Of a stretch of 27,868 bases of DNA, positions 1 to 27,811 are shown one piece after another. The translations under genes were made by a program, and so were the position numbers. Each line of letters starts with the position of its first letter. The first letter of the stretch is position 1. The notes below the pieces were generated by a model, which was not told where the DNA came from, did not search any database, and saw nothing but the letters and a program-made list of their open reading frames with translations. The DNA comes from a virus. Location: the IMG/VR virus record IMGVR_UViG_3300037584_005199, positions 1 through 27,868 of that record; one strand, given 5' to 3'.

Positions 1-29
1 GCGGTGAATTTAGCTTGCCTTAGTTGCAT
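1..29 (-). CDS. possible 5' end of a further leftward gene (cut by window edge)
   Basis: An ATG at 27-29 on the minus strand opens a frame that stays open to the window edge (MQLRQAKFT...). It lies 11 bases downstream of the radical SAM stop codon, in keeping with the tight packing here. I see no clear Shine-Dalgarno sequence, and nine residues cannot be identified. If real, it would be the next member of the base-modification operon. Confidence 0.3.
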
Positions 30-40
30 ACCAAAAACAA

Positions 41-1057
41 CTAAGAACTGGTCTCCGAGCTATTTTTAAAGTCGTAATGTTTCTTGACTAACTGTGTATA
101 TGGTTCTCCTTGCACTGCTTCTTTAACTAAATGATCTATAAACATATCTGGCTCCATAAGCACGGCTCTACCCATACGGTCAGGTAACAACCCATTACGG
201 AGAGTTACATTATCACAGCCATTACACACACCAAAATCACGCTGTCCGTGATACAGTTTTGTACGAGCGGCGTAGAAAGCATTGTTTTGCCAAAGATCTG
301 TGATGTTTTCTTTTAAGATATTCCCACACTTATATACTCCTGCCCAATCATTACAGCACAAAGCAACATTACCGTCCCACCGTAAACTAAGTTCCCTGAA
401 AGGTTTGGCACATCGTTTGCCCTGCTGTGTGTGATTTAATGGAAAAGCAGACCCTGCATGATTACTAACAAGCGAATGCGTACCATCAGTAGCCAAAGTC
501 AAATCCATTCCAACGACAATATCTTTTTCTTTTGCTTTCCTACGTCTATGAGGGTTACCCCTTTTGTCTTGTGGATATTGGTAGACGGGATACGGACCTT
601 CGTAACGTTCCTGAATCTTATCTACTATTTTAATACGGTCATAGTTGTCTAGAAACAATACGTTCACACCTGCTTCCATAAGTTTATTAACTTTTGCTGT
701 AATATCCCCAAGTAGACCGCCACCATTACTTGTCATCATGATAGATGTTTTTGGTAATGTTTTACGGAAAATAGATATGATGCCACAATAATCAGGGTGC
801 ATAGTTGGTTCACCATGCATGGCGAACTCTAAACGTGGGTTCCAATATTCGTTTACCATAGCCTGCTTTATTTGATCAGCTATGGTTTGTGCAAGTTCTG
901 CTGTAAGTATTTTATAAGGAGATGATGCTCTACCGTGAATGTTTTTTGGACCGTCAGCTTTGTTATCACGTATAGCTTGTATACCACAAAACGAACAGGC
1001 GAGGTTGCACCCTTCAACTAATTCAATTTGTATGGCGTTTGGTGCATCCTGCTTCAT
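41..1057 (-). CDS. radical SAM enzyme with SPASM-like C-terminal cysteine cluster
   Basis: 338 aa. The radical SAM [4Fe-4S]/SAM-binding motif CX3CX2C is at residues 17, 21 and 24 (GCNLACSFC), followed by a GEP motif at 82-84 (HGEPTMHP) typical of the fold. The C-terminal third has C216, C234, C235, C244, C278 and C281, spaced as in SPASM domains that bind auxiliary Fe-S clusters. The family makes a 5'-deoxyadenosyl radical to attack an unactivated carbon of the substrate. The substrate is not visible in the sequence. Because the two genes just upstream look like DNA base-modifying enzymes, a base or base adduct in phage DNA is the best guess; a peptide or nucleotide precursor is the alternative. 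The start is supported by a strong GGAGGA site lying inside the end of the glycosyltransferase gene, with which it overlaps by 35 bases. Confidence 0.88.
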   Translation of the reverse strand: MKQDAPNAIQIELVEGCNLACSFCGIQAIRDNKADGPKNIHGRASSPYKILTAELAQTIADQIKQAMVNEYWNPRLEFAMHGEPTMHPDYCGIISIFRKTLPKTSIMMTSNGGGLLGDITAKVNKLMEAGVNVLFLDNYDRIKIVDKIQERYEGPYPVYQYPQDKRGNPHRRRKAKEKDIVVGMDLTLATDGTHSLVSNHAGSAFPLNHTQQGKRCAKPFRELSLRWDGNVALCCNDWAGVYKCGNILKENITDLWQNNAFYAARTKLYHGQRDFGVCNGCDNVTLRNGLLPDRMGRAVLMEPDMFIDHLVKEAVQGEPYTQLVKKHYDFKNSSETSS

Positions 1058-1811
1058 AAGCTTTCCTCCATTGTACTCTTACATCATAGCGTTTTTTCAT
1101 ACCTTCCCAACCTGTTTTGGTTTCTTTTTCTACAACCTTAACAAAATCAGGATAATGAAAAGCTAATTCTTTAGAGGCGTGTTCTTGTAATTCAGGAGTG
1201 CGATAGGTACTGCACCCTCCTTTAGCTCCTGAACCACCACGTTGATCCCATGTCCAGTCTACTATTACAGCATTGGGTTTACCTCTTTCAAATAAACCCA
1301 ATGTCATAAAATAATCCTCCATAAGTTCCACATCAGTATACTTCAACCCTGTGTTGTAAATGTCAAAAGGTCGTAAACCATGCACAGCGTTCATACGCAT
1401 ACCATGCTTGACTTTATATGGGAAATGTTTATCGTTCATTTGGCGTGGGCTAACACCGACATGCACGTACTCATTAAGTAATTCGTCCATTCTATTGAAC
1501 AGCTCCGCTGTTTCTTGGCTTGTTACTTTTCTTAGGTTGGGTGCATCATCAGATGCCCGAGTATTAAAAATAAGATCATCGTCCAAAATAAGAATTTTAT
1601 CATAGTGTGCCTCCATAGCAAATTCTATTATAAACTGCCGAACACGATTTATGCCTGTTATCTCTCCACGGTCTATGACCTTACGCCCCATCAGTTCGTG
1701 TTGTTGTACTTCATGCTTGGGGCAGACAACAAAAGCATTCTCTTTTCCAATACTGTCTAGTGTGACTTGTTTATATACTCTGCCTTTTGTGGGAATAAAT
1801 ATGGGTATCAT
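1023..1811 (-). CDS. TET-associated-glycosyltransferase-like GT-A enzyme (putative DNA base glycosyltransferase)
   Basis: 262 aa. The N-terminus (IPIFIPTKGR, residues 2-11) and the LILDDDL motif (residues 74-80, DDD at 77-79) are those of a GT-A nucleotide-sugar transferase, the acidic triad being the metal/nucleotide-sugar site. An ED pair at 165-166 is a candidate for the catalytic acidic region. The conserved tail KGGCSTYR (198-205) and DVRVQWRKAY (243-252) matches what I recall of TAGT, the TET-associated glycosyltransferase family of phages. That family is predicted to put sugars on hydroxymethylated pyrimidines in DNA. No TET/JBP dioxygenase or pyrimidine hydroxymethylase is in the window, so the source of a hydroxyl acceptor is unseen. 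The gene starts one base after the upstream stop and overlaps the radical SAM gene. A general surface or nucleotide glycosyltransferase is the alternative. Confidence 0.75.
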   Translation of the reverse strand: MIPIFIPTKGRVYKQVTLDSIGKENAFVVCPKHEVQQHELMGRKVIDRGEITGINRVRQFIIEFAMEAHYDKILILDDDLIFNTRASDDAPNLRKVTSQETAELFNRMDELLNEYVHVGVSPRQMNDKHFPYKVKHGMRMNAVHGLRPFDIYNTGLKYTDVELMEDYFMTLGLFERGKPNAVIVDWTWDQRGGSGAKGGCSTYRTPELQEHASKELAFHYPDFVKVVEKETKTGWEGMKKRYDVRVQWRKAYEAGCTKRHTN

Positions 1812-1812
1812 T

Positions 1813-2817
1813 TTAAAATCCTAACTCTAAACGCTCAGGGTGTAACATACGTTCTGCCCCCTGCTTTTCAACTGTTGGTTTATAAAGACTGCGTGGTTTA
1901 CCCTGCCCCCATAAAACTCTTTCATATTTATCCCACTCGCACAAACTATGTTCAATACAACGCATATCTACCATAGATTGTAGCTCGTCACTCGCAAGCA
2001 CCCACCCATACGGAACTAACAAACCCTGTTGGGGGTCACGCATTTTTTGCAACAACTCAAACATTTGTTTGTTAGCTTCAGGCTGAGACATAGATTTATT
2101 TAAAATTGAGGCAGGAACACGGCTATTTTTAAGCCTGTTCAAACCACGTATTGCTCCAGGACCTGCGTTTGCCCAAGTGTATCTGTCGTTAGCAAATCGT
2201 AGTACAGGTGTATAGTTAAGATCTGTGACCACCTCATACGCCATAAATCCTCCACCACCAAACCCTTGATACTTTTTAAGTTCCTTATGTACTTCATACA
2301 AACTTTGACTTTCATGTGCAACTTTTCCTAAGTATAACCTAGCTGAATAAATAGGTCGTAGGAAGTGGTCTACCACCACCTCACCCTTTGGAAGTTTTAA
2401 GCCTTGATTGGTGATTACGTATGCTCCTGTGAAACACCTTTGTTTATCACGTAAGCGTTGTTCTATCAAGTCTTTTGTATACTGTGGTGACCAGTCTTTG
2501 CCTACCCACCCATGAGCATCAAAAAACTCTGATGTGCCAATCATGCGGAACAAACACGTATTGAATATAATATCGCCAAAGGGACTATTGTCGTGTGCTT
2601 TTGTCCACTTTCTAAACGCTACCGTTGTACGGTCATGCTCCCTAAAAGGGTTAGTAAACTTGTATGTTTCAAGGATAGGGTCATCAGTAAGTTTTTCAAA
2701 CCCACGTTGTTTCTTTTTATAAACACTGTGACGCTCAGCAATCCAGTAAGCAAATCTTTTAATTGGCTCTTGTGGAATACGTTCACGCCAGTTTCTAATA
2801 CGGTCATTTAATATCAT
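1813..2817 (-). CDS. 5-hmdU DNA kinase helical-domain / aGPT-PPlase-like DNA base-hypermodification protein
   Basis: 334 aa. The N-terminal block YKKKQRG...DDPILETYKFTNPFRE.DRTT (residues 33-65), the glycine run with the following acidic/YTP segment (GFGGGGFMAYEVVTDLNYTP, 185-204), AGPGAIRGLNRL (218-229) and IEHSLCEWDKYER (288-300) are what I recognise from the HMUDK helical domain, first described as alpha-glutamyl/putrescinyl-thymine pyrophosphorylase. That family is linked to a DNA-glycosylase-like fold and to thymine hypermodification in phages such as SP10, phiW-14, M6 and ViI. I see no Walker A P-loop (GxxxxGK[ST]) anywhere, so the kinase half present in the characterised two-domain enzymes is absent here. 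The start is supported by AAAGGTGG four bases upstream of ATG. It heads the three-gene cassette with the glycosyltransferase and radical SAM genes. Confidence 0.72.
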   Translation of the reverse strand: MILNDRIRNWRERIPQEPIKRFAYWIAERHSVYKKKQRGFEKLTDDPILETYKFTNPFREHDRTTVAFRKWTKAHDNSPFGDIIFNTCLFRMIGTSEFFDAHGWVGKDWSPQYTKDLIEQRLRDKQRCFTGAYVITNQGLKLPKGEVVVDHFLRPIYSARLYLGKVAHESQSLYEVHKELKKYQGFGGGGFMAYEVVTDLNYTPVLRFANDRYTWANAGPGAIRGLNRLKNSRVPASILNKSMSQPEANKQMFELLQKMRDPQQGLLVPYGWVLASDELQSMVDMRCIEHSLCEWDKYERVLWGQGKPRSLYKPTVEKQGAERMLHPERLELGF

Positions 2818-2820
2818 AAT

Positions 2821-2845
2821 ACCACCTTTCTATATGGTGGGGTGG
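2821..2845 (-). promoter_or_regulatory. ribosome-binding site that can pair with upstream CCACC
   Basis: On the minus strand the Shine-Dalgarno sequence AAAGGTGG before the 334-aa gene can pair with CCACC about nine bases upstream (plus-strand halves at 2822-2826 and 2836-2840). A second CCACC complement lies at 2841-2845. Such pairing could damp translation of the base-modification cassette. The stem is only five base pairs, so this is tentative. Confidence 0.25.
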
Positions 2846-2906
2846 ATAAGCACTTGCACTACAAGCAGAGCTAACGCACATTGACTTACACCCCAAAAAC
2901 ACTATA

Positions 2907-2934
2907 GCCCCTTGCCTTTTCACAGGCAAGGGGC
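2907..2934 (-). terminator. strong hairpin just after the DUF932 gene
   Basis: An 11-bp perfect stem GCCCCTTGCCT / AGGCAAGGGGC closes a 6-base loop, beginning 6 bases past the stop codon of the DUF932 gene. On the minus strand a run of five T follows only after about seven further bases, so it is not a textbook intrinsic terminator. It could attenuate transcription into the base-modification cassette or protect the upstream mRNA 3' end. It is the strongest simple hairpin I found in the window. Confidence 0.5.
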
Positions 2935-2940
2935 AAAAGC

Positions 2941-3972
2941 TCAAGATGCCTCGGCATACTCCATAACTTTGTCAAGTGCCTTACGCTTGGTATTTGCACC
3001 CGAACCAAACCACGCAGAGGTTAGCCGTAAGTCATTAGTCTTAGACTTTTTCTGGTGATCCATAACATAAGTAACACCGTTAAGGACACCCCACCACGAA
3101 CCTTTGGCTGAAGCTAAGTCAGCTCCTGGTGATTCTTCAATAGCCTCACGCACAGCCATACTGGTTTTAGTAAACTCCTCGTGTAACGGAGGTAACACCT
3201 GTTCCATAACTTTGCCACGCTCCTTGAGCACATTAGGCTGGAACATCTCTGCTATGAAGTTGTCTACTTGGTCTTGCTTGGCACGCTTTTTTGCCAAGAA
3301 CTCTGACTTTTGCTGGAACAACTCCATTTGTGTACCACTGATACCAAGTGCTTCCTCAGCGGCAGTCATAATGTCATCATCAAACATTTGTAAGTGTAAC
3401 ATACGGAACTTACCAGTCATGCCGTCTTGGTTGAGGGCAAGGGTAATTGTATTGTTACAGACAACACGGATAGGCGTAAACATAATAGTCATAGCCGTGC
3501 CTACCTTGTGACTGTTAGCCATAAGCAAGTAACCCTCAATTTCGTCGCCACCTGCTAACTTGAAGCCCTTTTTAATTTTAGCCAGACCCCATACACGCTC
3601 ACCGTCACTAAGACTGCCTGCCGTATCCATAGCCATTTGACCTGCGTCAGTAAACTTTTTAAAGAACGACATAGTCTCATGGTTTTGGAATGGCGTAAAA
3701 GCCTCACCACAATGCGATAACACTTTGTTATCTGTATCACGTACAACCATATATTGACCGTCGGCTGTAAGTAATTTAGCTTCACCACGTGGATCGTTGA
3801 GATCCCATACGTCTGGCTTACTAGCATAATAGACAGGACGTTTGCTAACTGTCCAATCGAGTCCTGCGGCTTTTAACATTTCCTCAGGAGTGAGGTTGCC
3901 CTCAACTTTATTACCTAGCCCATGCCAAGGGACTTCCCCTGCATAAGCCATAGTTTCTACCATATGTGCCAT
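2941..3972 (-). CDS. DUF932 / phage-plasmid-like protein (TIGR03299 type)
   Basis: 343 aa, close to the usual length of the family. The N-terminal MAHMVETMAYAGEVPWHGLG with the following EEMLKAAGLDWTVSKRPVYY segment is the hallmark of the DUF932 proteins found in phages and plasmids. FTPIRVVCNNTITLAL in the middle and DLRLTSAWFGSGANTKRKAL near the end also fit. The biochemical role of the family is not established. It is often near replication or recombination genes, as here, downstream of the helicase-primase block. A good ribosome-binding site (AGAGAGGTTA) precedes the ATG. The strong hairpin at 2907-2934 follows the stop codon, so this gene may end one transcription unit. Confidence 0.85.
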   Translation of the reverse strand: MAHMVETMAYAGEVPWHGLGNKVEGNLTPEEMLKAAGLDWTVSKRPVYYASKPDVWDLNDPRGEAKLLTADGQYMVVRDTDNKVLSHCGEAFTPFQNHETMSFFKKFTDAGQMAMDTAGSLSDGERVWGLAKIKKGFKLAGGDEIEGYLLMANSHKVGTAMTIMFTPIRVVCNNTITLALNQDGMTGKFRMLHLQMFDDDIMTAAEEALGISGTQMELFQQKSEFLAKKRAKQDQVDNFIAEMFQPNVLKERGKVMEQVLPPLHEEFTKTSMAVREAIEESPGADLASAKGSWWGVLNGVTYVMDHQKKSKTNDLRLTSAWFGSGANTKRKALDKVMEYAEAS

Positions 3973-9351: not shown

Positions 9352-10788
9352 ATGCGTTATAAATTTAAATTACAGCCCTACGAGCATCAGCTTGATGCTT
9401 TGCGTGCCTCTTGGAACAAGCAAGAATATGCTTGGTTCATGGATATGGGTACAGGCAAATCAAAAGTATTGATAGATAATTTCTGTGTTCTGTATGACAG
9501 AGGCAAAATATCTGGTGTTTTAATTATCGCACCAAAAGGTGTGTATAGAAACTGGGAACAAGGCGAGTTGCCCACACATATACCTGAACATGTTGATCAT
9601 GAAACAGTATTGTGGCGACCCAACCAAACTCAAGCACAAATACAAAAGCAAGATGCTTTGTTTGTACCTACCGAAACACTTAAAATATTTATTATGAACG
9701 TAGAAGCGTTTAGCACACGTAAAGGTTTAGATATAGCTACACGTTTTGTAAATGCCCATACCTGTATGATGGCTATAGACGAAAGCACCACTATTAAATC
9801 TAAAGATGCTAAACGTACAAAGAATATTGTAAAGCTCGGTAAGCAGGCACGTTACAAAAGAATATTAACTGGTTCACCTGTAACTAAATCACCTATGGAT
9901 TTGTATACACAATGTGAGTTTCTTGATCCTTGGTTATTGGGTCATGGTAGTTACTACACGTACCAAAATGAATATGCAATCATACAACGCAGAAATATGG
10001 GAGCACATTCGTTTAACCACATTGTTGGGTATAGAAACTTAGATAAATTAAACACACAGCTAGAAAAGTTTAGTTTCCGTGTACGTAAAGAAGATTGTTT
10101 AGATTTGCCTGACAAAGTATATATAAAACGTTCTGTAGAGTTGTATCCAGAACAACGCAAAATGTATGAAGAACTAAAGCAGTATGCTCTTGCTGTGCTA
10201 GAAGATGATAGTGTTACGGCAACAACTGTTTTGACACAACTCTTACGATTACAGCAAGTTTGTTCTGGACACGTAAAAACAGATGAAGGTGAACTGCACA
10301 CATTCAAATCAGCTAAATTACCAGAGTTGCTTGATGTATTAGCTGAAACCAACAGTAAGGTAATTATCTGGGCTAACTTTACACACGATATAGTAACTAT
10401 ACGGTCAGCATTACAAGAAGTGTATGGTGAAGGTTCGGTGGTAACGTATTATGGTGAAACACCAAGCGAACAACGGCAAGAGGTAGTGCGTCAGTTTCAA
10501 GACCCTAAATCATCTGTAAAATATTTTGTGGGACAGCCACGCACAGGGGGGTATGGTCTTACTCTTACAGAAGCAAAAACCGTTATTTATTACAGTAATA
10601 ACTTTGATTTAGCCATACGCCTGCAAAGTGAAGACAGAGCACATCGTATAGGACAAACCAGTAAAGTAACGTATGTAGACATTGTTGCTGAAAACACAGT
10701 AGATGATAGAATACTAAAAGCACTACGTAGTAAGATAGATATTGCTAGTCAAATACTGGCTGAAGATTATAAGAGCTGGATCATTTAA
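9352..10788 (+). CDS. SNF2-like superfamily 2 helicase/ATPase
   Basis: 478 aa. Walker A is MGTGKSK (32-38), motif Ia APKGVYRNWEQ (60-70), Walker B IDEST (142-146; a DEST variant of DEAD/DEAH), motif III TGSPVTKSP (173-181), and the C-terminal RecA lobe carries GGYGLTLTEA (motif V) and EDRAHRIGQ (427-435, motif VI), the last diagnostic of SNF2 proteins. Such compact SNF2 proteins occur in many phages and presumably move along or remodel protein-bound DNA during replication, recombination or transcription. It is the only plus-strand gene here, divergent from the replication operon and convergent with the 180-aa gene, whose stop codon it overruns by eight bases. The ribosome-binding site before ATG is weak (AGAAAG). 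Confidence 0.93.
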   Translation: MRYKFKLQPYEHQLDALRASWNKQEYAWFMDMGTGKSKVLIDNFCVLYDRGKISGVLIIAPKGVYRNWEQGELPTHIPEHVDHETVLWRPNQTQAQIQKQDALFVPTETLKIFIMNVEAFSTRKGLDIATRFVNAHTCMMAIDESTTIKSKDAKRTKNIVKLGKQARYKRILTGSPVTKSPMDLYTQCEFLDPWLLGHGSYYTYQNEYAIIQRRNMGAHSFNHIVGYRNLDKLNTQLEKFSFRVRKEDCLDLPDKVYIKRSVELYPEQRKMYEELKQYALAVLEDDSVTATTVLTQLLRLQQVCSGHVKTDEGELHTFKSAKLPELLDVLAETNSKVIIWANFTHDIVTIRSALQEVYGEGSVVTYYGETPSEQRQEVVRQFQDPKSSVKYFVGQPRTGGYGLTLTEAKTVIYYSNNFDLAIRLQSEDRAHRIGQTSKVTYVDIVAENTVDDRILKALRSKIDIASQILAEDYKSWII

Positions 10789-12132: not shown

Positions 12133-15100
12133 TATCCAATACTCCCTATGCCTTGTGTTAATCGTCGGTTCGCTATGGCTTCCCCAATCGGATCGTTGGC
12201 AAACAAAGATGCAAAATTTGTAATTCCTTTTCCCGTTTGCTGTGCAGGAGGGGGTACTGTTGTTCTGTCAAAAGGCAATGTTGCCTGTGAAACTTGGTTA
12301 ATCGGCGGTTGTTGCGTTGTAACTACCTCAGTGTCATCTGCCTGTGGTTGCTCTACTTGTGTTTGTGAAATATCTTCCTGTAAGTCAAAAGTTGCATCAT
12401 TGTTTGGCTTCATATTATCCAAACCTTTTATTACTTCTTGTATAATGGTTGTTGCCACCTGTATTTTCCTAGCACCTTTTGTATTCGCATACTGCTTGAG
12501 TTGTTGCACGGAAGGCGTGCTAGACAATATTCGAGACATGAGGTTGTTAGTAAATAAGGTTTGATAAGCACCTAATGCACCAGTATAATCAAGAATATTA
12601 ATTAAACCAGATCGCACTGAACCTGCCTGCATCAACCCACCAACATCCCCTTTTATGCCCATAAAGTCAGAGTAAAATTTAATATTTGTAACGTCTTTTA
12701 TATATTTTTCATTTGCTATTAATTTTCCATCAGGTTTGATTGTTCCAAATAATGCTCGTAACCCTACATAATCACCCGATGGAGTATCACTTAAGGCTAG
12801 TTTGAGTTGATCAAGCTCCGCTGATAATTTTTTTGGATCAATAAGATCACCACCTATTGCTTCCTCATCAATGCCTTTTGACTTTGCCAATATCGTTTTA
12901 AATAAAGCCGCTCGTAATTCTTTACCTGCTTTGCCATCAACACCGCCACCTGTCTGTATAAAATCTTGTATAGCTAAATCGTTGGTATTAGTTTTAAATT
13001 GATCTTGTACAACCTGTAACGCTCTAGCTCCTTGCGAGGTTTTTGCATTTAAAGCGAGTTTAAAAGGGCTACTATTTAATTGTTCAGCAGATAAAATAAA
13101 ATTATCCAGCTGTTGTCTAAATTGTGGGTTAGGGAAAAAAGTTTCCAGTAAACCTCTTTCTTTTAAATTAGTTATTTTTTCTATTGACCCCACAGGATCG
13201 CTTACAATGTCGTTGATAGCGAGCTCCCTAAATGTTGACGTCATATCCGTTTTTAATTTATTAGCTCTTTTGCCTGTACCGTGTTTTGCTATCACATTCA
13301 TAAATAATTCATATTGTTCTTTGTTGAAATTACCATTAAGAACACCACGAGCAAAAGTTTGCGGAGTATACGTTTTAGATTTAAATAATTTACTCAATCC
13401 CGCTATGTCAGAAACTGCTTTGCGTTGTGAATATAATTCACCTGCTTGTTGATAAAATTTCAGGAAGTTTTTACCACCTGTCACTTGTCCATTCTTGACA
13501 CCATTTATAATAAAATCATCAAAAGCCTCTAACATTTTTACAGCTTTATTTCTATTGATTACGCTTAATGTATCGTCATAAGCTAATTCTGCTACTTGAT
13601 CACGTAAGGCTTTTATTTGACCAAAAGAACTCTGTGTTTCTTTAGCCCCCACAGAAACAGCTTTAACTTGAGGACTTAAATCATTAATTTTGTCAAGAAC
13701 TTGTAGCAATCTATTGTCTATATCAGCAATTTTCATAAAACTGCCATCAGCTTTTTTAGACATGGCAGGTGTTTTCAATCCTGCAGAAATACTTTGTAAA
13801 GAGCTAATATCAAAAGTTATTTTTTGAGCATCAGAAGCATCGAAAGCCTTGCCATACACATCATCTATATATTTTGTTAACGCTTTATTTGCTAATTCAG
13901 ATCGCTTGACTAAATCATCTGCTGATTTTGCTAAACTTGCTGTGCCTCCTATAAAGTCCGTACCCTCTTTAAGAAACAAATCTGAGTAGCCCTTAAACAA
14001 GTCATCCTTCATACCCCTGTACGATAAATCTAAGAAGTTAGAAATTTCATTAGAGCTGAAAGAACTAAAGTCTCCTCCGTCTCCAGCTTTTTTTACCATA
14101 AGATCATATAATTTAGTTTTTTGTTTGCTCAAGTTTTGGGGTAATCTTCTACTGGTAGCAGAAATTTGTGTCCCCATACCACGAACCAAAATACTATCAC
14201 TAATTTGTGCGATATTTAACAATGGTAAATCAATGCCATACTCCTTGCGAAGCTCTTCTACTCCCTCAGCGGCTTTCCATGCGTTACCCTGTGGTCTAGT
14301 AAAGCCTAGTGTCAACCACCAACTTTCTCCGCGATCACCCATGCCTGTAATTTTTGAAGCTGTGCGTTTCATGGTGTTGATAAGACCTGGAGCAAATTTA
14401 GTTATGGCTCCTTCTACTAAACCCCAAGTTGCTCTTTCACCATCAAATAACTTACCTTTAAATTCCTCTTGATCAAGCCCCGATCCCGCAATCAAATCAT
14501 CTATGTAATCACCGATATAATATCCTGCCGCTGTTCCAATTAGAGGCGTTAAAAAAATAGTTCCTAAAATAGACCCTGCTGTTCCAGCCGTTGCAAAAGA
14601 ACCTGTAGCTTTGCCTAAATCACCTAAACTTAAAACTTCATTGCTAACTCTATATTTTTTGCCTCCTGGACTGGTTTCGTATAGTTCTATAATATCATTA
14701 CCACTTTTGACGTTAAATAAATTGCCTTCGGGAAAAATTTTCTTAAAGTAGGCTTGTCTCATAGGACCTTTGGTGCGACGCATAAGCCCATCAACCTGAC
14801 CAAAGGTTAGTGGACCTTCAACATTTGTTCCTGCATAGTTTGGGAATCTTTCCTTCAGCAAGTCTTCGATGCGTTGGTTCTCTGTTTCTACTTGTTGTTT
14901 GCGAGCTTTGAATAACTCTGGGTCTAACGTTCCAGCTAATGTGGGCTCTACAGATTTCTCAAAGGTATTTACAAACGGTGTGCCTTCTATTAAGTTTTGT
15001 GTATCAAGCTGTTTCCGCTCCATTTGATCTTTCAAAACTGCTTTTGAAATTTCTTTGTTTTGTGGTTTTATAAATTCTTGTAATTGTGCTTCTTCTAATC

Positions 15101-15212
15101 GTGTTCCTCCAGGAGAAACTTTTACACCAAAATCTTCTATCTCCTTAAATTCTTTTTCATCGATTAGTGGAGTACCAAAATCTTCTAATATAATCAATCC
15201 ATCTTCGCTCAT
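12132..15212 (-). CDS. large putative internal virion / ejection protein, 1026 aa
   Basis: Not matched to a named family. It is long and mostly helical, with a Gly/Ala-rich hydrophobic segment at about residues 201-236 (ATGSFATAGTAGSILGTIF and following) that could insert in a membrane. The C-terminus is a Gln/Pro/Thr-rich linker (around 950-1000). Size, lack of enzyme motifs, and position between another giant protein and the lysozyme are like those of internal virion proteins that podoviruses eject into the cell. The start overlaps the previous gene by four bases (ATGA); no strong ribosome-binding site is visible, so coupled translation is likely. Confidence 0.62.
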   Translation of the reverse strand: MSEDGLIILEDFGTPLIDEKEFKEIEDFGVKVSPGGTRLEEAQLQEFIKPQNKEISKAVLKDQMERKQLDTQNLIEGTPFVNTFEKSVEPTLAGTLDPELFKARKQQVETENQRIEDLLKERFPNYAGTNVEGPLTFGQVDGLMRRTKGPMRQAYFKKIFPEGNLFNVKSGNDIIELYETSPGGKKYRVSNEVLSLGDLGKATGSFATAGTAGSILGTIFLTPLIGTAAGYYIGDYIDDLIAGSGLDQEEFKGKLFDGERATWGLVEGAITKFAPGLINTMKRTASKITGMGDRGESWWLTLGFTRPQGNAWKAAEGVEELRKEYGIDLPLLNIAQISDSILVRGMGTQISATSRRLPQNLSKQKTKLYDLMVKKAGDGGDFSSFSSNEISNFLDLSYRGMKDDLFKGYSDLFLKEGTDFIGGTASLAKSADDLVKRSELANKALTKYIDDVYGKAFDASDAQKITFDISSLQSISAGLKTPAMSKKADGSFMKIADIDNRLLQVLDKINDLSPQVKAVSVGAKETQSSFGQIKALRDQVAELAYDDTLSVINRNKAVKMLEAFDDFIINGVKNGQVTGGKNFLKFYQQAGELYSQRKAVSDIAGLSKLFKSKTYTPQTFARGVLNGNFNKEQYELFMNVIAKHGTGKRANKLKTDMTSTFRELAINDIVSDPVGSIEKITNLKERGLLETFFPNPQFRQQLDNFILSAEQLNSSPFKLALNAKTSQGARALQVVQDQFKTNTNDLAIQDFIQTGGGVDGKAGKELRAALFKTILAKSKGIDEEAIGGDLIDPKKLSAELDQLKLALSDTPSGDYVGLRALFGTIKPDGKLIANEKYIKDVTNIKFYSDFMGIKGDVGGLMQAGSVRSGLINILDYTGALGAYQTLFTNNLMSRILSSTPSVQQLKQYANTKGARKIQVATTIIQEVIKGLDNMKPNNDATFDLQEDISQTQVEQPQADDTEVVTTQQPPINQVSQATLPFDRTTVPPPAQQTGKGITNFASLFANDPIGEAIANRRLTQGIGSIG

Positions 15213-17929
15213 TGGTTTGTACCCAATCGTAATATGGTAGCACCTTTAAGTATTGGGAAAATTTTCTCTTTTATAGTTTTTTCAACTGCAAGACGTTGAG
15301 CTTCGTTTTGTGAAGGAGCGTAACTCATAGTAGCTCCTTGTTCTTGCATAAAAATACCTAATGAACCATCACGATACTTGTCTATTAACTCATCAGCTGT
15401 TTCAATGTTTTGTACAAAAGGTATCATTTTACCTAAATTATCGGTAATTTTAGCTTTTTGGTTGTCACTTGTTTGAATGTAAACTTTATTGGGCTCAAGC
15501 TGTACCCTGTTATTTTCCTCTATTTCAGCCATTTCTGCACGTAATTCATTAATCTGTTCTTGATTAATTTCCTCACGCCGTTGTGCCATAAAAGTATCGA
15601 TTTTAGCGTCTATTTCTACAGGAGAGACACCGTCTTTTTGTAAATCTATTATAAGCTTGTTGGCATCGTTCAACACCGTTCTAGAGCGTGTGGACGCATT
15701 AGTGAATATTTTAGTGATTAACTGAATAGCTTTTGGAGTTTTAAGCAAACTCGGACCAACAGAAGTAATGATGGCTACCTCTTCCTTGTTAAGGTTTCCT
15801 GGAAAACTTTCAGCCAAATTGATCGCTATACGTTTACCAACAGAATCGAGCGTTTGACCTGTTGGAATATCGCCACCAAGCAAATCAGTAAGTTTCTTTT
15901 GGTCTACATTTTCATATCCTAATGCTTTGAGTGTATCTGTAACGATTGTATTGACACCAGAAGTCTCTAATAAATTACCAAGAGCGACTCTAAAGTTTCC
16001 TGCAAAACCAGTTGAAAATTGTGTTGATAATACTGTGGCTCGCTGTGCATCACCTGCCACCTCTGCCATAAGGTTTGCATTAGCCCTTTGACCTTCCAAC
16101 ATTTTGTAAAGATTTTTGGAGGCAGAGTCATTCATTTCTTTGTTTGGATTGTAAGGCGAAGTTTTTGTTGTTTGTGCTTCTAAATACTTTTTAATATTAT
16201 CCGCTCTGAATTTATCCCGAGCTTTTTCTGCTTCTAATTTTGCCGACTCACTATTTCCAAGAAAACTTATAGCTTGGTTATACACACGATTAGCTTGATC
16301 GTTTAGCAACCTTTCAAAAGCTGTTAATTTATCTTGTGGGATAACATTCGCGGCATACCCTTCTACCATCTTTAGTGCATCTTTGTGCTCTTTTGTTCCA
16401 GGAGGAGCGAGGTCTAACGTGTTTATGGCTGTCATATAACCTTTTAAGTTTTTCTGTAAATCGGTTAGATCTAAATCCTCTCTAGAAGGTATGCCGTTTT
16501 GTCCATTTAAGACTTCAACATTACCTTTTTTATCCACTCGTGCTATTAAGCCACCAAAATTCACTACGTCTTTATTTTTAGAGCTATGTATTGGAATTAC
16601 TCTGAGCGGATTAGTTTTGTCTATAAGTAATACATCACCATCAACAGTAACCTCTTTATACTTAGCATCAAAATTTTCTGTGCCATGAGTAACTTTACGT
16701 GCTCCTGTAAACTTATCTACCCCGATATGCACACCATTACCTAGATTTATGAAATTTAATTCTTCTTTTCCGCTTATTTTTCGTGCTGTGTTCAAATCAA
16801 AATTTGGATCTTGTAAATCAGTATCAGATACAAAGTAAATTTCGTTACCAATAGGAACTTGATCATAAGTTTTACCCTGCTCATATTTTACAGCTAAGTC
16901 TTTTTGGGGTATGCCATTTATAATAGGTAAGACATATTTTACTTTTTGTTTTGTTTCAGGGTCTATACCATCGACTATTTGTGTTTTAGTAGATCCTGCA
17001 GGAGCGTCCTCCAACATGGCTTTTAATCCTGTAGCCAATAGTGTGGCTTTTGTAGAGTCTTGTTTTGTAGAAACCTCAGCCGCTTTTGTACGTGCCGCTG
17101 ATTCGGCTTCAGCCGCTTTGAGTTTTGCCTGAGCTTCAGCTTGTGCTGTACCCTGTGCCATTTCTAACAAGGGGTCTGTAATCCCTTTTATATTTTGTGG
17201 AGCTAAAACATTAGAAATTAATTGCCCTTTTGGAGCATTTGCCACAGCTCCTGCAAGATTTAAGGCGGCGAGTAAAGGGTTATATTTGAACCCTTTTTGT
17301 GCGTCTTGAGCATATTGTTGATAGGCTTCTATTAAGGGTTGTTGAGCAGTTTGATATCTAGATAATGCTGTGTTATAGTCAACTCCTCCACTGCCACCGA
17401 AATTTTCCAAAAATAATTTTGTAAGATTATACTTATCTGCCGCTCTAGGGTTAGTCTTGAAAAGTTCGTCAAGGGCTGAGGGTTGTTTTTTTGCCGTTGT
17501 GGTTGATGCTCCTGGAATACCTGTTAATTCTGGGTCACCTAAGTTTGTACCTATTGATCGCTTTACAGGTGTTTCACCCATTGCAATACGCATGGTTGCT
17601 TCTTCTGTGCGAGGAGCCTGAGTCGTTTCTGCCATGTCCAATATAGCAAAGGTGGGTTGTAGGAGTGTAAGCACCGACTCAGGCGTTTGTTTAGCGTCGG
17701 GTTTACCTACATAACTAGCTAGCTCTGTACGACGCTCCTCCACAGACTGATTATCACCACGTAATACATTCATAATACCTTCAGGTGATTCAGCACTGTC
17801 TATACCTTTGTTTACAGCATCCATTTGACCTGCAACTTCACCAAGTCCTGATGTTATACCAACACCTTCAGCATCAGCCTGTGGCATTGCTCCTTGAAAC
17901 ATTTGTCTTTGTAGAGTTGGGTCTATCAA
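15209..17929 (-). CDS. large putative internal virion / ejection protein, 906 aa, TTG start
   Basis: Not matched to a named family. It contains an Ala-rich coiled coil at about residues 260-300 (AQAEAQAKLKAAEAESAART), a central beta-looking region (VPIGNEIYFVSD, HIGVDKFTGARKV), and a helical region with a second likely coiled coil near 790-815 (INELRAEMAEIEENN). The start appears to be TTG at 17927-17929, overlapping the previous stop as TTGA and preceded by GGAG seven bases upstream. The next in-frame ATG is nine codons in. It belongs to the four-gene block 391-317-906-1026 and is probably part of the ejected core or a tail component. Confidence 0.62.
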   Translation of the reverse strand: MIDPTLQRQMFQGAMPQADAEGVGITSGLGEVAGQMDAVNKGIDSAESPEGIMNVLRGDNQSVEERRTELASYVGKPDAKQTPESVLTLLQPTFAILDMAETTQAPRTEEATMRIAMGETPVKRSIGTNLGDPELTGIPGASTTTAKKQPSALDELFKTNPRAADKYNLTKLFLENFGGSGGVDYNTALSRYQTAQQPLIEAYQQYAQDAQKGFKYNPLLAALNLAGAVANAPKGQLISNVLAPQNIKGITDPLLEMAQGTAQAEAQAKLKAAEAESAARTKAAEVSTKQDSTKATLLATGLKAMLEDAPAGSTKTQIVDGIDPETKQKVKYVLPIINGIPQKDLAVKYEQGKTYDQVPIGNEIYFVSDTDLQDPNFDLNTARKISGKEELNFINLGNGVHIGVDKFTGARKVTHGTENFDAKYKEVTVDGDVLLIDKTNPLRVIPIHSSKNKDVVNFGGLIARVDKKGNVEVLNGQNGIPSREDLDLTDLQKNLKGYMTAINTLDLAPPGTKEHKDALKMVEGYAANVIPQDKLTAFERLLNDQANRVYNQAISFLGNSESAKLEAEKARDKFRADNIKKYLEAQTTKTSPYNPNKEMNDSASKNLYKMLEGQRANANLMAEVAGDAQRATVLSTQFSTGFAGNFRVALGNLLETSGVNTIVTDTLKALGYENVDQKKLTDLLGGDIPTGQTLDSVGKRIAINLAESFPGNLNKEEVAIITSVGPSLLKTPKAIQLITKIFTNASTRSRTVLNDANKLIIDLQKDGVSPVEIDAKIDTFMAQRREEINQEQINELRAEMAEIEENNRVQLEPNKVYIQTSDNQKAKITDNLGKMIPFVQNIETADELIDKYRDGSLGIFMQEQGATMSYAPSQNEAQRLAVEKTIKEKIFPILKGATILRLGTNQ

Positions 17930-18879
17930 CTAAGTGCTCCGTATATGCCTGCTCCAGCGATACCACCACCTAATAATTGATTAAACACTGATGGATTAGG
18001 GGTTGATTGCATACTAATCGTAGTTTGTGAACTAGGCACTCCCTGTAATATATCGCTGTAGAATCCTAGTCGTTTGTAAGGTTCATAAATGTTTGCCATT
18101 TGTGTTTGATAATCGGCTTCAAGTCCTGCTTGGTCTGTTTTTTGTTGTATACCACCAAGACCTGCAATTTGTCCTATTTCGCCCCCTTGTAGTTTTGCTA
18201 GTAAACCACCGAGACCTGCTTGCTGAGCTCCAAGACCACCTATCCCTTGTGCTAATGCCCCTTGTGTAGCACCGAGCTTGCCTAGTCCTTGAGCCGCCAT
18301 CAATGATCGTGTGAGTTCGTTTTGAGCGGCTTTTTGAGCTTGCATAAAGTTTTGTGCTTCACTTTTTGCTAACGCAGAGGCACGATTACGATCTATTTCT
18401 GATTCCATTACTGCCGCTCTACTACCACCAAAAGCCGACGGACCACCTGCCTGTCCTGCTGATCGGCTCCTTGCCTGTGCTACTTGTTGGTCATATGCTC
18501 TATTTATTTCTGCGGATACAGCATCTTGGTAAGGGTTCATATACCCTTCCATCATTTCTTGTGTGGGTGCTCCAGTGCCTAATCCATACTGTGCCGATCC
18601 TTGACCTATAAGATTCAATCCACCTTGAAAGGCAGGTATGGCTGAACCTATAGTAGTAGATCCTGCTTGCAGATAGGGTGAATAACTACCAATACCTGCT
18701 TTTGCTAAATCAAAAGCTGTTGTTTGTAAATCACTTGGTCCTGCCGCTTTGACATCAGGTAATCCACCTGTTGGTGGTTGACTCGTCAGGGCTTTTGCCT
18801 GATCAAGGATACCTAAATAATATGCCTGTTTCTCGGGATCAGGAAGTATTTGCTGTATTGTTTTTGAAACTTCTGCCAT
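17926..18879 (-). CDS. Gly/Ala/Gln-rich virion-type protein, 317 aa
   Basis: No recognised enzyme motif. The N-terminal part has aromatic-Pro motifs (GSYSPYLQAG, MEGYMNPYQDAV). The middle is a basic helical stretch (NRAYDQQVAQARSRSAGQAG, DRNRASALAKSEAQNFMQAQ), followed by a repetitive Gly/Leu/Gln run (LGKLGATQGALAQGIGGLGA). The C-terminus ends with a hydrophobic glycine-rich tail (GGGIAGAGIYGAL). I recall such proteins as unnamed structural genes in marine podovirus contigs. It is coupled on both sides (TAATG with the 391-aa gene, TTGA with the 906-aa gene). It could be an ejection protein that crosses the membrane, which is inference from composition and neighbours. Confidence 0.6.
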   Translation of the reverse strand: MAEVSKTIQQILPDPEKQAYYLGILDQAKALTSQPPTGGLPDVKAAGPSDLQTTAFDLAKAGIGSYSPYLQAGSTTIGSAIPAFQGGLNLIGQGSAQYGLGTGAPTQEMMEGYMNPYQDAVSAEINRAYDQQVAQARSRSAGQAGGPSAFGGSRAAVMESEIDRNRASALAKSEAQNFMQAQKAAQNELTRSLMAAQGLGKLGATQGALAQGIGGLGAQQAGLGGLLAKLQGGEIGQIAGLGGIQQKTDQAGLEADYQTQMANIYEPYKRLGFYSDILQGVPSSQTTISMQSTPNPSVFNQLLGGGIAGAGIYGALS

Positions 18880-20054
18880 TATGCCATCGCTGTTTTTTCA
18901 AATTTTTTCATCATATCATACATACGTTTTGCTCCTGCCTTACGATCACCATTACCTGCCCCTCGTACCGATTTTGCATTCATCACAAATTCACCATCAC
19001 TTAACATTGCAGGTATAGAATCACTGGTCGGTGTTCCAGGACCAATTATTTCTCCACCATCGTTAGCTCTTACTGGTTGAAAAGCAGAATCTTGGTAGTA
19101 AGGATTAGAGCCAAAGAAGTTATCACCTAAACCATATCTACCCAGATTAGCTAAATACATTTTTCTAGGGTCTTGTAGCTCAAAACCTTCTTCTTCTGGA
19201 GCTGATAAAGCATCAGCTACCCCTGCTACACCTAATGTCGTGCCTGCTATGGGAGCATATTTTTCTAACATTGTTGGTTGCTTCGCCGCTTCAGTAAGCA
19301 GATTTGTCGCCGCTGGAGTACCCTTTATGCCTGCACTTTCTATGATCTTTTGTGCTTCCGCTAGTTTTGCTTGGGGCATGATACTTGGTCGGTTCGGACC
19401 TAATAAATCAGCTACCCCTTTACCTGCTGATTTTGTAGTTTCTGCTATATTTGCACCTACTTCTTTTGTTGCTCCTCCGAGACCTTTTTCTTTCAGAGCT
19501 GATATACCCTGTTGTGCTTGTTGTCCTGTACCAAAGAAACCTTTATTACTTAAATAACTTCCAGCTCCTGCTGTTGCACCAGTCAATAATGCACTCTTTA
19601 GTGCATCTTCTGGTGACGCACCACCAATCAAGTTTCCTGCAAAACTACCTATACCACTTGACAAGGCTAGTGGCATCGCAGGCAACAAATAAGGAGCGGC
19701 GATCGCCAATGCTATAGGGGCTACCTTTTTAACAACATCTTTCAACCCATCAAATATTTTACCTAAGAAAAACTCAGGCTGTCCTGTTTCAGGGTTGATA
19801 CTGTTTAACTCATTGCCTACTATATACCGCTCAGGCTCTAATCCCATTTCACGCATTTGCTTAAACAACATTTGTTTCATACGTGGGTTAGCATCTAGCA
19901 CCTCCATAGGCACTACTGTTTCACCTTCAGCGGCATGAACAATGTATGTATCGCCCTCTCTACCGTAGGTAGAAACTATATCAGCGGCTTCTTTTACTGA
20001 AAAAATGCCACTTGTATCGAATGTTTTGGGTTCTATTTGCGTAATACCAGTCAT
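18879..20054 (-). CDS. putative virion structural protein, 391 aa, first gene of ejection block
   Basis: Not assigned to a named family. An N-terminal segment (TYIVHAAEGETVVPMEVLDA, about 37-56) and a C-terminal segment (SDGEFVMNAKSVRGAGNGDR, about 353-372) are motifs I have seen in structural proteins of marine phages. Residues 105-175 are a long Ala/Gly/Leu-rich hydrophobic region that may be membrane-active. The first gene after an 88-base gap, it has a strong AAAGGTGG ribosome-binding site and a sigma70-like promoter upstream, so it can be expressed apart from the fibre genes. A tape-measure-like or ejection role is possible; only the virion context supports it. Confidence 0.6.
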   Translation of the reverse strand: MTGITQIEPKTFDTSGIFSVKEAADIVSTYGREGDTYIVHAAEGETVVPMEVLDANPRMKQMLFKQMREMGLEPERYIVGNELNSINPETGQPEFFLGKIFDGLKDVVKKVAPIALAIAAPYLLPAMPLALSSGIGSFAGNLIGGASPEDALKSALLTGATAGAGSYLSNKGFFGTGQQAQQGISALKEKGLGGATKEVGANIAETTKSAGKGVADLLGPNRPSIMPQAKLAEAQKIIESAGIKGTPAATNLLTEAAKQPTMLEKYAPIAGTTLGVAGVADALSAPEEEGFELQDPRKMYLANLGRYGLGDNFFGSNPYYQDSAFQPVRANDGGEIIGPGTPTSDSIPAMLSDGEFVMNAKSVRGAGNGDRKAGAKRMYDMMKKFEKTAMA

Positions 20055-20075
20055 TATTCCACCTTTGTATTGATG

Positions 20076-20094
20076 CAGGAGTAGCTAAATCCTG
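20076..20094 (-). promoter_or_regulatory. small inverted repeat in mRNA leader of 391-aa gene
   Basis: CAGGA (20076-20080) and TCCTG (20090-20094) can form a five-base-pair hairpin with a nine-base loop between the candidate promoter and the ribosome-binding site. It could affect leader folding, but it is short and may be chance. Confidence 0.2.
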
Positions 20095-20112
20095 ATATTC
20101 GCTTAACTGAAC

Positions 20113-20141
20113 ATTTTAATATGTAATTTTTCATATTGCAA
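20113..20141 (-). promoter_or_regulatory. sigma70-like promoter before the ejection-protein block
   Basis: On the minus strand, TTGCAA (20136-20141) is followed after exactly 17 bases by TAAAAT (20113-20118), matching 4/6 and 5/6 of the -35 and -10 consensus. It would start a transcript near 20106, giving a leader of about 50 bases with a good ribosome-binding site before the 391-aa gene. Confidence 0.5.
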
Positions 20142-20142
20142 C

Positions 20143-20445
20143 CTAAGATATTGTAACAGAAACAGAACCTAATGTGGTCGTGCTTCCATTACCCTGTGGG
20201 TGAGGGGCATTGAGTTTACTAATTTTGACAAAACCGTCTACTTCAAACAACGCTCCTGTTTCTAAATTTATATCAAAATCACTAGGTAACGCAGTCATAG
20301 TCATTTTTGTAGCTCGTGCCTCTCCTGGATTACGCTGTTGTTCAACAAACACACCAAAAGCACGCACTACATCAGCGAAATATTGTTGTTGGTACTCAGT
20401 TGGTGGATAAGCAAATAAAGGGGCTGGAACTTGACGTGTGGACAT
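20143..20445 (-). CDS. small virion-associated protein, 100 aa
   Basis: I recognise the style (PAPLFAYPPTEYQQQYFADV at the N-terminus) from unnamed proteins that follow the large beta-rich tail protein in marine phage contigs, but know no function. The first half is helical with a Gln-rich stretch. The second half (DFDINLETGALFEVDGFVKI) is beta and ends in a Thr/Ser/Val tail. It is coupled to the 700-aa gene by a TAATG overlap, suggesting a matched pair such as a tail or connector component and partner. It is the last gene before the internal promoter at about 20.1 kb. Confidence 0.65.
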   Translation of the reverse strand: MSTRQVPAPLFAYPPTEYQQQYFADVVRAFGVFVEQQRNPGEARATKMTMTALPSDFDINLETGALFEVDGFVKISKLNAPHPQGNGSTTTLGSVSVTIS

Positions 20446-22547
20446 TAACGCCTCCCATCAGGGCGTACATCTATACGTGGTACTCCCAATCGCCATTGTG
20501 TACCTGTAGCTGTACTTTCTATGCGGAATACAAACTGCCTACCTCGTAACCGTACACGTAATTGGTCAGTGTATTGTTCTATCGGTGTTGTAGCCGAACG
20601 AGTAATATTTGTTTGACCTGAGGAAGTTTCATTAAAGTTGACTCCTGGAAAGTTTGTTGTTTTCACAGTCAAACTTGCTACAGGTTCGCTATTTGTACTA
20701 TCTCTAAAAGTTAAATCAGGTATAATTTTTTGCACCAAAGCAAATTTATCACCCTGATCTAAATCTATTTGTGCTGATTCTATGTTCGCACTAATAGCTG
20801 ATACAGGGTTTGTGCTACCATCATCTTGCCCAAACTCATGATAATATAATTTTTTGTCTGTGCTTGCGGCGATAGGGTATTGGTTAATTCCTCTATCAAC
20901 CCATGCTGTGCGAGCTAACGTGCCGTAATACCACACTTTTTCTTGATAGTTATATATGACATATCTATCATTTGTTGTGCTACTGCCACTCGGATAGAAC
21001 CACCACACTTCACCGTATGAACTATTATGTCCCCCAGTAACCTTACCAATTTGGTCTCTGTTAAAATCACTAAACACATAATCTAAAACAGTACAGGGTA
21101 GTCGTTGTACCGTACCACCATATGCGTAAAACTCTTTTGAACCCATCCAGAATACAAAATCATTTACTGCGACGGCGGCGTCAGGACTAGCTATTGTAAT
21201 ATTGCGTGATATTTCAGATAAACCAAAAGTAAACGGTGGTCCTAAGAACTGTAAACCATGTAATGACACATCGGTGAATACTAATATCTGCTGTTTTGTT
21301 TGTATGGCTACGACAATCTCACTGCCTGTTGATATACGTAATTCACCTGCTGTATTTGTTGTAAGTGTTTGCCATGCTGTGAGACTTTCTTGGTCACTAA
21401 AGCGAATGAGCAGTGGGTCTTGTGTACCGATGCTACCTTCGCCATCACACCCAAAAGCAATAATATGCCGTGCTTGGTCGCTCACCATAATTTGTTTTGC
21501 TATCGTTGGAGCTAGATTACTACCACTTAAACTACTCAAAGCAACAGCTCGTGTAGAAGTTCCTCCCGTGCGATCCCAGTAAAATATACCACCATTACGA
21601 GAGTTCATTAACAAGTCTTCACCAAAATTATCATGCGTCCAGTTAGATATGTTTGCCCCTGCTACCGTCGTTGTTGCAGGCATACTCCAACCAAAGGTCG
21701 CTTCGATAACCGTATCATCGTCACTATGACTCGCGGCTGTGGTATTATAACGAGCACGAATTAGTCCTGTAAAAGTAGTTGATGTTTTACCTGTATACTC
21801 TATAATTTCATCATTTATTTTTATAAGTCCCGCATCAGAAAAGTTTGTGGTCGCATCCACCGTAACTGTTGTTGCAACGGCTGTTAAACCACTGCCATCA
21901 TTTATAGCTGTAGAAGGTAATGAATCAGTTGTACCGCTGAATACTCCTGCTCCCCAACCTGTTCCAAAAAAGTTTGTATCTAAACCTGTGTTTATTTGGT
22001 ATTGAGCTACAGTGCTACCCCCACCATTTTGGTTATCACTACCAGAAGCTGTTGCTGATACAGTAATTTTGTAAGAGTTATTGTTGACTTTTTCAATAAT
22101 CTGGTGTTCACCATCTAATACTGTAGCTGTAATCTGGTCTCCTAACGAAGCTGTGCTAGAAAAAGTTACAAAATCATTAAGGTTAGCCCCATGAGCCGCA
22201 TCTGTTACTGTGATAGTTGTACTACCATTTGTCGCCGCAAACGTCGCCGCTCCTGTTGTAGTTTTACGTATAGGTGTTACATCATAATATTGTCCACCAT
22301 CAGCGATGTAATATTTGAGATTTGTACCAATACCTAAAAATTTAGTACCATCTAATGCCACCCAACTAAATAACGCTCTACATGTTCCTAGAAATGTATT
22401 ATCACTATAGGCAGACCACCCACCTATTTTTTCAGGGTAGCCTAACCTAAACCGTATTTTATCGCCATCAAACCACCCACCTTCGTTAGAATACGAAGTG
22501 CCTTCGCGATTAATTCCAGGTTTAAATTTAAGTGCGGTTAATGGCAT
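20445..22547 (-). CDS. large beta-rich tail/neck protein, 700 aa, possibly P22 gp10-like stabilisation protein
   Basis: The start KFKPGINREGTSYSNEGGWF, the following IRFRLGYPEKIGGWSAY, and repeated beta-blade-like segments (FLGIGTNLKYYIA, HIIAFGCDGEG, VWYYGTLARTAWV) look like a beta-propeller structural protein. The C-terminus RRGQ-type region (LRGRQFVFRIESTATGTQWR, then VDVRPDGRR-like end) is typical of this tail family in marine phages. A relation to P22 gp10, the packaged-DNA stabilisation/tail protein, is my best guess but rests on general similarity. An inserted domain at about 90-290 (repetitive Thr/Ser/Asn, IITVTDAAHG-like) may be Ig- or adhesin-like. It is coupled by TAATG to both neighbours. 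Confidence 0.55.
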   Translation of the reverse strand: MPLTALKFKPGINREGTSYSNEGGWFDGDKIRFRLGYPEKIGGWSAYSDNTFLGTCRALFSWVALDGTKFLGIGTNLKYYIADGGQYYDVTPIRKTTTGAATFAATNGSTTITVTDAAHGANLNDFVTFSSTASLGDQITATVLDGEHQIIEKVNNNSYKITVSATASGSDNQNGGGSTVAQYQINTGLDTNFFGTGWGAGVFSGTTDSLPSTAINDGSGLTAVATTVTVDATTNFSDAGLIKINDEIIEYTGKTSTTFTGLIRARYNTTAASHSDDDTVIEATFGWSMPATTTVAGANISNWTHDNFGEDLLMNSRNGGIFYWDRTGGTSTRAVALSSLSGSNLAPTIAKQIMVSDQARHIIAFGCDGEGSIGTQDPLLIRFSDQESLTAWQTLTTNTAGELRISTGSEIVVAIQTKQQILVFTDVSLHGLQFLGPPFTFGLSEISRNITIASPDAAVAVNDFVFWMGSKEFYAYGGTVQRLPCTVLDYVFSDFNRDQIGKVTGGHNSSYGEVWWFYPSGSSTTNDRYVIYNYQEKVWYYGTLARTAWVDRGINQYPIAASTDKKLYYHEFGQDDGSTNPVSAISANIESAQIDLDQGDKFALVQKIIPDLTFRDSTNSEPVASLTVKTTNFPGVNFNETSSGQTNITRSATTPIEQYTDQLRVRLRGRQFVFRIESTATGTQWRLGVPRIDVRPDGRR

Positions 22548-23809: not shown

Positions 23810-23816
23810 GTTAACC

Positions 23817-24358: not shown

Positions 24359-24366
24359 CTTAACTC

Positions 24367-25473: not shown

Positions 25474-25477
25474 GGTG

Positions 25478-27487: not shown

Positions 27488-27491
27488 TTTA

Positions 27492-27770: not shown

Positions 27771-27811
27771 TGTTACCTCCTTTAAGATATGTTATTTCGC
27801 ATTGGCATATT

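Follow-up and report, generated by a model that had tools for sequence, protein, structure and literature searches.

The DNA considered here is the IMG/VR virus record IMGVR_UViG_3300037584_005199, analysed over its full 27,868 bases (hereafter the window), which carries at its left end a cassette of three genes. These encode a protein of the 5-hydroxymethyldeoxyuridine (5-hmdU) DNA kinase helical-domain family HMUDK_hel, a TAGT-family glycosyltransferase and a radical SAM enzyme (Table 1). The original prediction, made from the sequence before any database search, described a head-to-tail cassette for DNA base hypermodification with an unusual combination of enzymes. The open reading frames (ORFs) bear out this layout, with a single base separating HMUDK_hel from the TAGT gene and a 35-base overlap between the latter and the radical SAM gene. 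The Pfam matches of all three proteins exceed the curated cut-offs, and profile searches place the 334-residue and 262-residue proteins in the families foreseen for them. The label radical SAM/SPASM holds in part: both the Radical_SAM and the SPASM profile score above cut-off, but the protein has no clear full set of SPASM cysteines and is better described as a twitch-type enzyme. The combination is indeed unusual, though not unique to this phage, as it recurs in 31 dereplicated loci. Loci of this phage group that bear TAGT keep the gene order, so the arrangement is not a matter of chance.

Table 1. Features at the left end of the window.
Feature	Position	Strand	Family match
HMUDK_hel (aGPT-PPlase1-like) protein, 334 residues	1813..2817	-	PF18723 (E 8e-44); PHROG 2396
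TAGT-family glycosyltransferase, 262 residues	1023..1811	-	PF20691 (E 1.6e-12); PHROG 842
Twitch-type radical SAM enzyme, 338 residues	41..1057	-	PF04055 (Radical_SAM, E 4.6e-07) and PF13186 (SPASM, E 2.5e-10)
Window edge, collinear with sibling contig L005 to window base 1	1..40	-	
DUF932 protein, upstream neighbour (landmark, not claimed for the pathway)	2941..3972	-	PF06067 (E 3.8e-45)

Phages sharing the locus and the origin of the hydroxymethyl group

The window phage is one that we label marine-type, and its relatives carry the same gene set. Across 80 viral contigs with an HMUDK_hel relative, the genes follow the order DUF932, HMUDK_hel, a slot of varying content, a gene of thymidylate synthase (TS) fold, a 124-residue protein, DNA polymerase I (PolA) and an HD protein. 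The slot between HMUDK_hel and the TS-fold gene holds the TAGT and radical SAM genes or, alternatively, a member of one of the families c1, c3 and c8, and is empty in two loci. Of these families, c1 is GT4-like, and c3 is GT-B-like by profile comparison with c1 (78%). By contrast, c8 (~335 residues), which occupies the glycosyltransferase slot in L079, L081, L127 and L138, has no confident fold and no similarity to c1 by hhalign; one of its relatives has a sub-threshold glycosyltransferase match, and we count c8 as a glycosyltransferase provisionally. The TAGT protein itself scores 48.3 bits against PF20691 (cut-off 27.5), matches PHROG 842, a beta-glucosyl-HMC-alpha-glucosyltransferase, at E 2e-44, and has at residues 77-79 a DDD metal motif that is kept in 12/12 homologues. 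In T6-like phages, TAGT has been assigned to the glucosylation of modified cytosine DNA (PMC13390438).

The TS-fold gene lies outside the window itself. A near-identical sibling contig (L002/L005) matches the window continuously as far as window base 1 (97.8% overall), and there a TS-fold protein of 338 residues begins 41 bases past the window edge, followed by the 124-residue protein, DNA polymerase I (640 residues) and an HD protein (186 residues) that matches YfbR-like 5′-deoxynucleotidases. To the left of the cassette, the original prediction had looked for a pyrimidine hydroxymethylase, a TET/JBP dioxygenase or a P-loop kinase. A hydroxymethylase candidate does lie just past the left edge in the sibling, whereas the other two did not appear: the TET/JBP profile PF12851 is absent from 50 records, which speaks against such an oxygenase as the source of the hydroxymethyl group, and the 5-hmdU kinase profile PF18748 has a match in 0/46 group records.

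The TS-fold protein shares 42% identity with gp58 of Pseudomonas phage M6, and its best PDB match is the cytidine monophosphate (CMP) hydroxymethylase MilA (2e-21), with thymidylate synthases behind (5e-12). The DNA of M6 bears 5-hmdU-derived bases (PMC9476957), and residue 177 of TS determines the choice between uracil and cytosine (PMC8670742). The equivalent of Asn177 of E. coli TS is Asn in 159/160 scorable homologues, in kinase-class and glycosyltransferase-class loci alike, and the motif RSNDxIWGxxGAN is common to the TS-fold enzymes, including those of kinase-class phages. Because of this Asn and the homology to M6, the TS-fold enzyme is probably a uracil-type hydroxymethylase, and the starting base would be 5-hydroxymethyluracil and not 5-hydroxymethylcytosine.

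A TET/JBP oxygenase does occur elsewhere. In a different, unrelated phage, its gene (L140:1122-2054; PF12851, 1.3e-19) follows the radical SAM gene, and in L141 one adjoins a radical SAM gene that is preceded by a c3-like glycosyltransferase. This suggests that TET may stand in for the hydroxymethylase in modules of this type.

Within the 46 group records, TAGT is found in 18 and a SPASM-matching radical SAM enzyme in the same 18. The amino acid:DNA transferase (ADDT) profile PF18724 has no match over cut-off in any of the 46; six weak partial matches were seen, and the one traced (G010) falls on HMUDK_hel itself. M6 and Sonora served as controls for both PF18748 and PF18724 and were positive, and the 46 records may be fragments, the longest being 52-69 kb compared with ~60 kb for two circular relatives. 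A kinase hidden in the group was considered as well and rejected on the negative PF18748 scan together with the HMUDK_hel proteins, none of which contains a Walker A motif or P-loop.

Exclusivity of kinase and glycosyltransferase

A wider set of loci was gathered by searches with the radical SAM enzyme and with a diverse HMUDK_hel alignment, annotated by profiles and dereplicated at 85% identity, resulting in 98 HMUDK_hel loci. Kinase and/or ADDT are present in 21 of these, a glycosyltransferase in 62 and neither in 15, while no locus has both (Fisher 4e-12 for the exclusivity, uncorrected and ignoring relatedness). Among the 62 glycosyltransferase loci, two without the radical SAM enzyme and one with it rest on c8 alone. 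A second kinase scan, covering 50 whole records, gave matches only in kinase-class records or, once (L252), where the HMUDK_hel locus is cut short, and none in any glycosyltransferase-class record.

Mapped onto the HMUDK_hel tree, the kinase label must change 10 times, and well supported branches force eight or more of these changes. Independent pairs on the tree that differ in the kinase include five to seven with the opposite difference in the glycosyltransferase and, in most pairings, none with a difference in the same direction, the glycosyltransferase being otherwise unchanged. Counts and tree changes together suggest that kinase and glycosyltransferase replace each other around a constant core of HMUDK_hel and hydroxymethylase. 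With PF18748 and PF18724 absent from the group records and no locus holding both kinase and glycosyltransferase, the link to a kinase and amino-acid pathway that was drawn at the outset finds no support, and the cassette is probably not an M6-type system for amino-acid hypermodification.

If this holds, the many DNA-modification loci of this phage family fall into two branches, one with a kinase, whose chemistry has been described, and one with a glycosyltransferase, which has no described chemistry. Even the name '5-hmdU kinase helical domain' is questionable, as no kinase stands beside HMUDK_hel in most of the sampled loci. In a set of loci among L200-L221, L071 and L078, the TS-fold gene comes immediately after HMUDK_hel, with neither kinase nor glycosyltransferase.

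The radical SAM enzyme accompanies glycosyltransferases

The twitch radical SAM enzyme is encoded in 31 loci, each of them with a glycosyltransferase (31/31), and in 0/36 loci that have none; 18 of the 31 came through the radical SAM search, which inflates the radical SAM share without forcing a glycosyltransferase to be present. Its partners—TAGT, c3, c1 or c8—are glycosyltransferases of differing families, and it lies on the glycosyltransferase's strand in 24/24 measured cases, mostly less than 50 bases away. Gains and losses of the enzyme on the HMUDK_hel tree number at least 11.

At the level of the protein, the CX3CX2C motif corresponds to C17, C21 and C24, each of which is found in 23/23 homologues, as is each of the twitch auxiliary-cluster cysteines C216, C234, C278 and C281, which align to cysteines of BtrN. 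Two further cysteines, C235 and C244, are present in 23/23 and 17/23 homologues, respectively. A profile of 23 members has BtrN as its best solved relative (1.2e-20), the next solved protein following at 1e-6, and the structure model of the enzyme is poor (predicted local distance difference test, pLDDT, 60). Viral relatives were found down to 37% identity in a search of the viral collection; no cellular relative appeared in a scan of genome contigs that used two short patterns only.

BtrN turns an aminocyclitol alcohol into a ketone (PMC9012708), and another radical SAM enzyme, BlsE, works on a sugar attached to cytosine, a pyrimidine base (PMC3715490). Since BtrN is the best relative and the phage enzyme tracks glycosyltransferases, a sugar is its likelier substrate, and action on a DNA-bound sugar would be the simplest reading of context and family. 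The original proposal of a DNA base-hypermodification cassette with a sugar-bearing product is supported, and a predicted pyrimidine hydroxymethylase lies immediately past the left edge. The accompanying idea of a 'radically rearranged base' is weakened, because the enzyme differs from the M6 radical SAM enzyme in family and context, has an alcohol dehydrogenase, BtrN, as its nearest solved relative and goes with glycosyltransferases.

Some loci hold further genes that could act on sugars. In L146, a protein of the UDP-glucose/GDP-mannose dehydrogenase family (L146:1049-1999) is encoded between TAGT and the radical SAM enzyme, so this phage may use a glucuronate-type donor. FkbM-type methyltransferases lie beside the glycosyltransferase slot in two loci (L045:11982-12722, L133:3290-4009), where sugar methylation is possible.

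The HMUDK_hel protein

HMUDK_hel of the window is 33% identical to M6 gp55, and its AlphaFold model has a pLDDT of 84.9. Foldseek returned no match to this model at E <= 0.001. In VIA-align, the top match is PUGT (8z2n), a phage 5-PmdU glycinyltransferase, with a Z of 10.6 over 238 residues, a value that helical models reach by chance; behind it rank many HhH DNA glycosylases (Z 6-9.5) and queuine salvage enzymes, for which Z is not decisive either. No match was obtained to a single ADDT sequence, and wider profiles yielded no more than a faint local match to ADDT (16% probability), located in the HhH and CEWDK regions; M6 encodes HMUDK_hel and ADDT by two different genes. The conserved residues of HMUDK_hel are the same whether its partner is a kinase or a glycosyltransferase. 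Its invariant residues include GPG, CE-DK and D. Judging from the model, HMUDK_hel may be a base-handling partner protein that recognises 5-hmdU and flips it out, a role that would account for the same residues being kept with either partner.

Proposed pathway and alternative explanations

The interpretation that we put forward is that the cassette, without any kinase, yields a 5-hydroxymethyluracil in phage DNA that is glycosylated and then radically altered; to our minds, it could equally well prove right or wrong. The neighbouring TS-fold enzyme would produce 5-hmdU monophosphate for incorporation by the phage PolA. HMUDK_hel, resembling HhH glycosylases, would then recognise or flip out 5-hmdU in DNA for a swappable catalytic partner, i.e. 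the P-loop kinase in M6-like phages and the glycosyltransferase here. TAGT would add a hexose or related sugar to the hydroxymethyl group, upon which the twitch radical SAM enzyme would work on that sugar, most likely oxidising a hydroxyl to a ketone in a two-electron step as BtrN does. The glycosylation of 5-hmdU is well supported by the gene context.

Beyond the cassette, we tentatively suggest, as something possible yet short of probable, that HMUDK_hel is a general 5-hmdU hub whose partner has repeatedly been swapped between kinase and glycosyltransferase, with a kinase-free glycosyl-5-hmdU branch and, in its radical SAM subtype, oxidation of the DNA-bound sugar to a keto-sugar. If true, the keto-sugar would make a previously undescribed base and provide DNA with a reactive handle; a radical SAM enzyme acting on a DNA-bound sugar would also bring its chemistry to duplex DNA in a new way.

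Several points weigh against this interpretation. Fifteen HMUDK_hel loci have neither kinase nor glycosyltransferase, while L137 and L141 hold a radical SAM enzyme and a glycosyltransferase with no HMUDK_hel in view. Co-occurrence was counted over contig fragments, and some of the loci (L127-L146) were fetched via the radical SAM enzyme itself. Glycosyltransferases c1 and c3 of the window's own group occur without the radical SAM enzyme, making it an optional extra. Likeness to BtrN, being one between SPASM/twitch enzymes, does not fix the substrate, and the resemblance of HMUDK_hel to PUGT, a transferase, may point to catalysis instead of base presentation.

This last point underlies an explanation in which HMUDK_hel is itself a PUGT- or ADDT-like transferase of amines or amino acids, leaving the glycosyltransferase and the radical SAM enzyme to act on the adduct, with the latter rearranging carbon or nitrogen. 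The leading structural match to PUGT and the faint ADDT echo in the HhH and CEWDK regions speak for it; however, an activated phosphate substrate of the PUGT type requires the kinase that these loci lack, ADDT is absent above cut-off, and HMUDK_hel and ADDT coexist in M6 as distinct genes, making this unlikely if worth keeping in view. We also find it rather improbable that the radical SAM enzyme acts on the pyrimidine or the hydroxymethyl group, for example by oxidation or C-C bond formation, with the sugar as a separate later decoration: nucleosides are substrates of many radical SAM enzymes and a TET/JBP oxygenase adjoins the one in L141, yet in the set the enzyme always comes with a glycosyltransferase, despite the 36 HMUDK_hel/hydroxymethylase loci that have none and would still offer it the base.

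Strict linkage to glycosyltransferases would equally be expected if the radical SAM enzyme edited a nucleotide-sugar donor before TAGT transferred the resulting unusual sugar. DesII-like radical SAM enzymes work on nucleotide sugars, and the dehydrogenase-family gene of L146 sits between TAGT and the radical SAM gene; against this, the enzyme pairs with glycosyltransferases of unrelated families and the window has no nucleotide-sugar genes, so that donor editing seems distinctly improbable. Surface decoration is common among phage glycosyltransferases, and the pair might have the host surface or some protein as its target, unconnected with DNA. The TAGT family, the operon with hydroxymethylase and PolA and the exchange with the 5-hmdU kinase in the same neighbourhood make this very improbable. 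Finally, TS-fold proteins are frequent in phages and true TS also carries Asn177, as would suit an enzyme making plain thymidine monophosphate for unmodified DNA, but we regard this as barely credible given that the protein is nearer to MilA than to TS, resembles M6 gp58 and shares its RSNDxIWGxxGAN motif with kinase-class phages.

Comparison with known systems

Thymidine hypermodification genes are, as Lee and colleagues reportedly found, combinatorially diverse in metagenomes. The M6-type system (Pseudomonas phages M6, SN1) has the same core order of HMUDK_hel, hydroxymethylase, HD protein and PolA as the cassette group and the same uracil-type hydroxymethylase. Unlike M6, the cassette group has no 5-hmdU kinase, ADDT, pyridoxal phosphate (PLP) enzyme or M6-type radical SAM enzyme and carries a glycosyltransferase and the twitch radical SAM enzyme instead.

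Closer in content is the gene cluster of HTVC023P-type pelagiphages, whose set includes related phages such as 023Pt_psg01 and in which TS, aG/PT-PPlase1, 5′-deoxynucleotidase, PolA and a putative glucosyltransferase also occur; the presence of TS, aG/PT-PPlase1, 5′-deoxynucleotidase and putative glucosyltransferase together was thus previously known (PMC9599517). In contrast to the window cassette, no radical SAM gene is mentioned there, and the passages on the cluster do not discuss the absence of a kinase. We found no description of the exclusivity of kinase and glycosyltransferase around HMUDK_hel, nor of the twitch radical SAM enzyme as a glycosyltransferase-dependent partner, in the literature searched, coverage of which was partial, and consider both to be new.

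Among cultured phages, Brevibacterium phage LuckyBarnes has a TS-GT-GT-HMUDK_hel operon (GT, glycosyltransferase) with two TAGT genes and, as in the cassette group, DUF932. Unlike in the window phage, no twitch radical SAM enzyme was found in it; being cultured, it offers direct access to the glycosylation part.

The predicted product class, a sugar on 5-hydroxymethyluracil, is that of base J (beta-glucosyl-hydroxymethyluracil), whose hydroxyl, however, derives from JBP oxygenases, none of which was found in the records of the cassette group. Hypermodified thymine with a sugar was described earlier in Bacillus phage SP-15, whose glucosylated dihydroxypentyluracil (PMC5977210) has another side chain and goes with another gene cluster. 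For the radical SAM enzyme, the closest comparison is BtrN, a twitch radical SAM dehydrogenase of butirosin biosynthesis in which the radical SAM as well as the auxiliary-cluster cysteines align; unlike the proposed DNA-bound substrate, that of BtrN is a free aminocyclitol, and the phage enzyme is only distantly similar.

Other features of the window

The DUF932 gene keeps its position in the gene order in nearly all relatives. Compared with sibling L005, DNA identity falls to ~88-95% over HMUDK_hel and TAGT (window 900-3000) from ~97-100% on the flanks, which take in most of the radical SAM gene; we read this patch as probable local recombination or a fast-changing stretch in the modification genes. 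An apparent fall in identity at window 8400 is an artefact arising where the sibling segment was cut. A SNF2-family helicase gene (9352-10788) is the sole long gene on the plus strand, the rest of the window being minus-strand. The match to L005 ends at about window base 12,324, not far from where the lysozyme and a 1026-residue ORF adjoin, and the tail region (window 12325-27868) appears to have been exchanged relative to this sibling.

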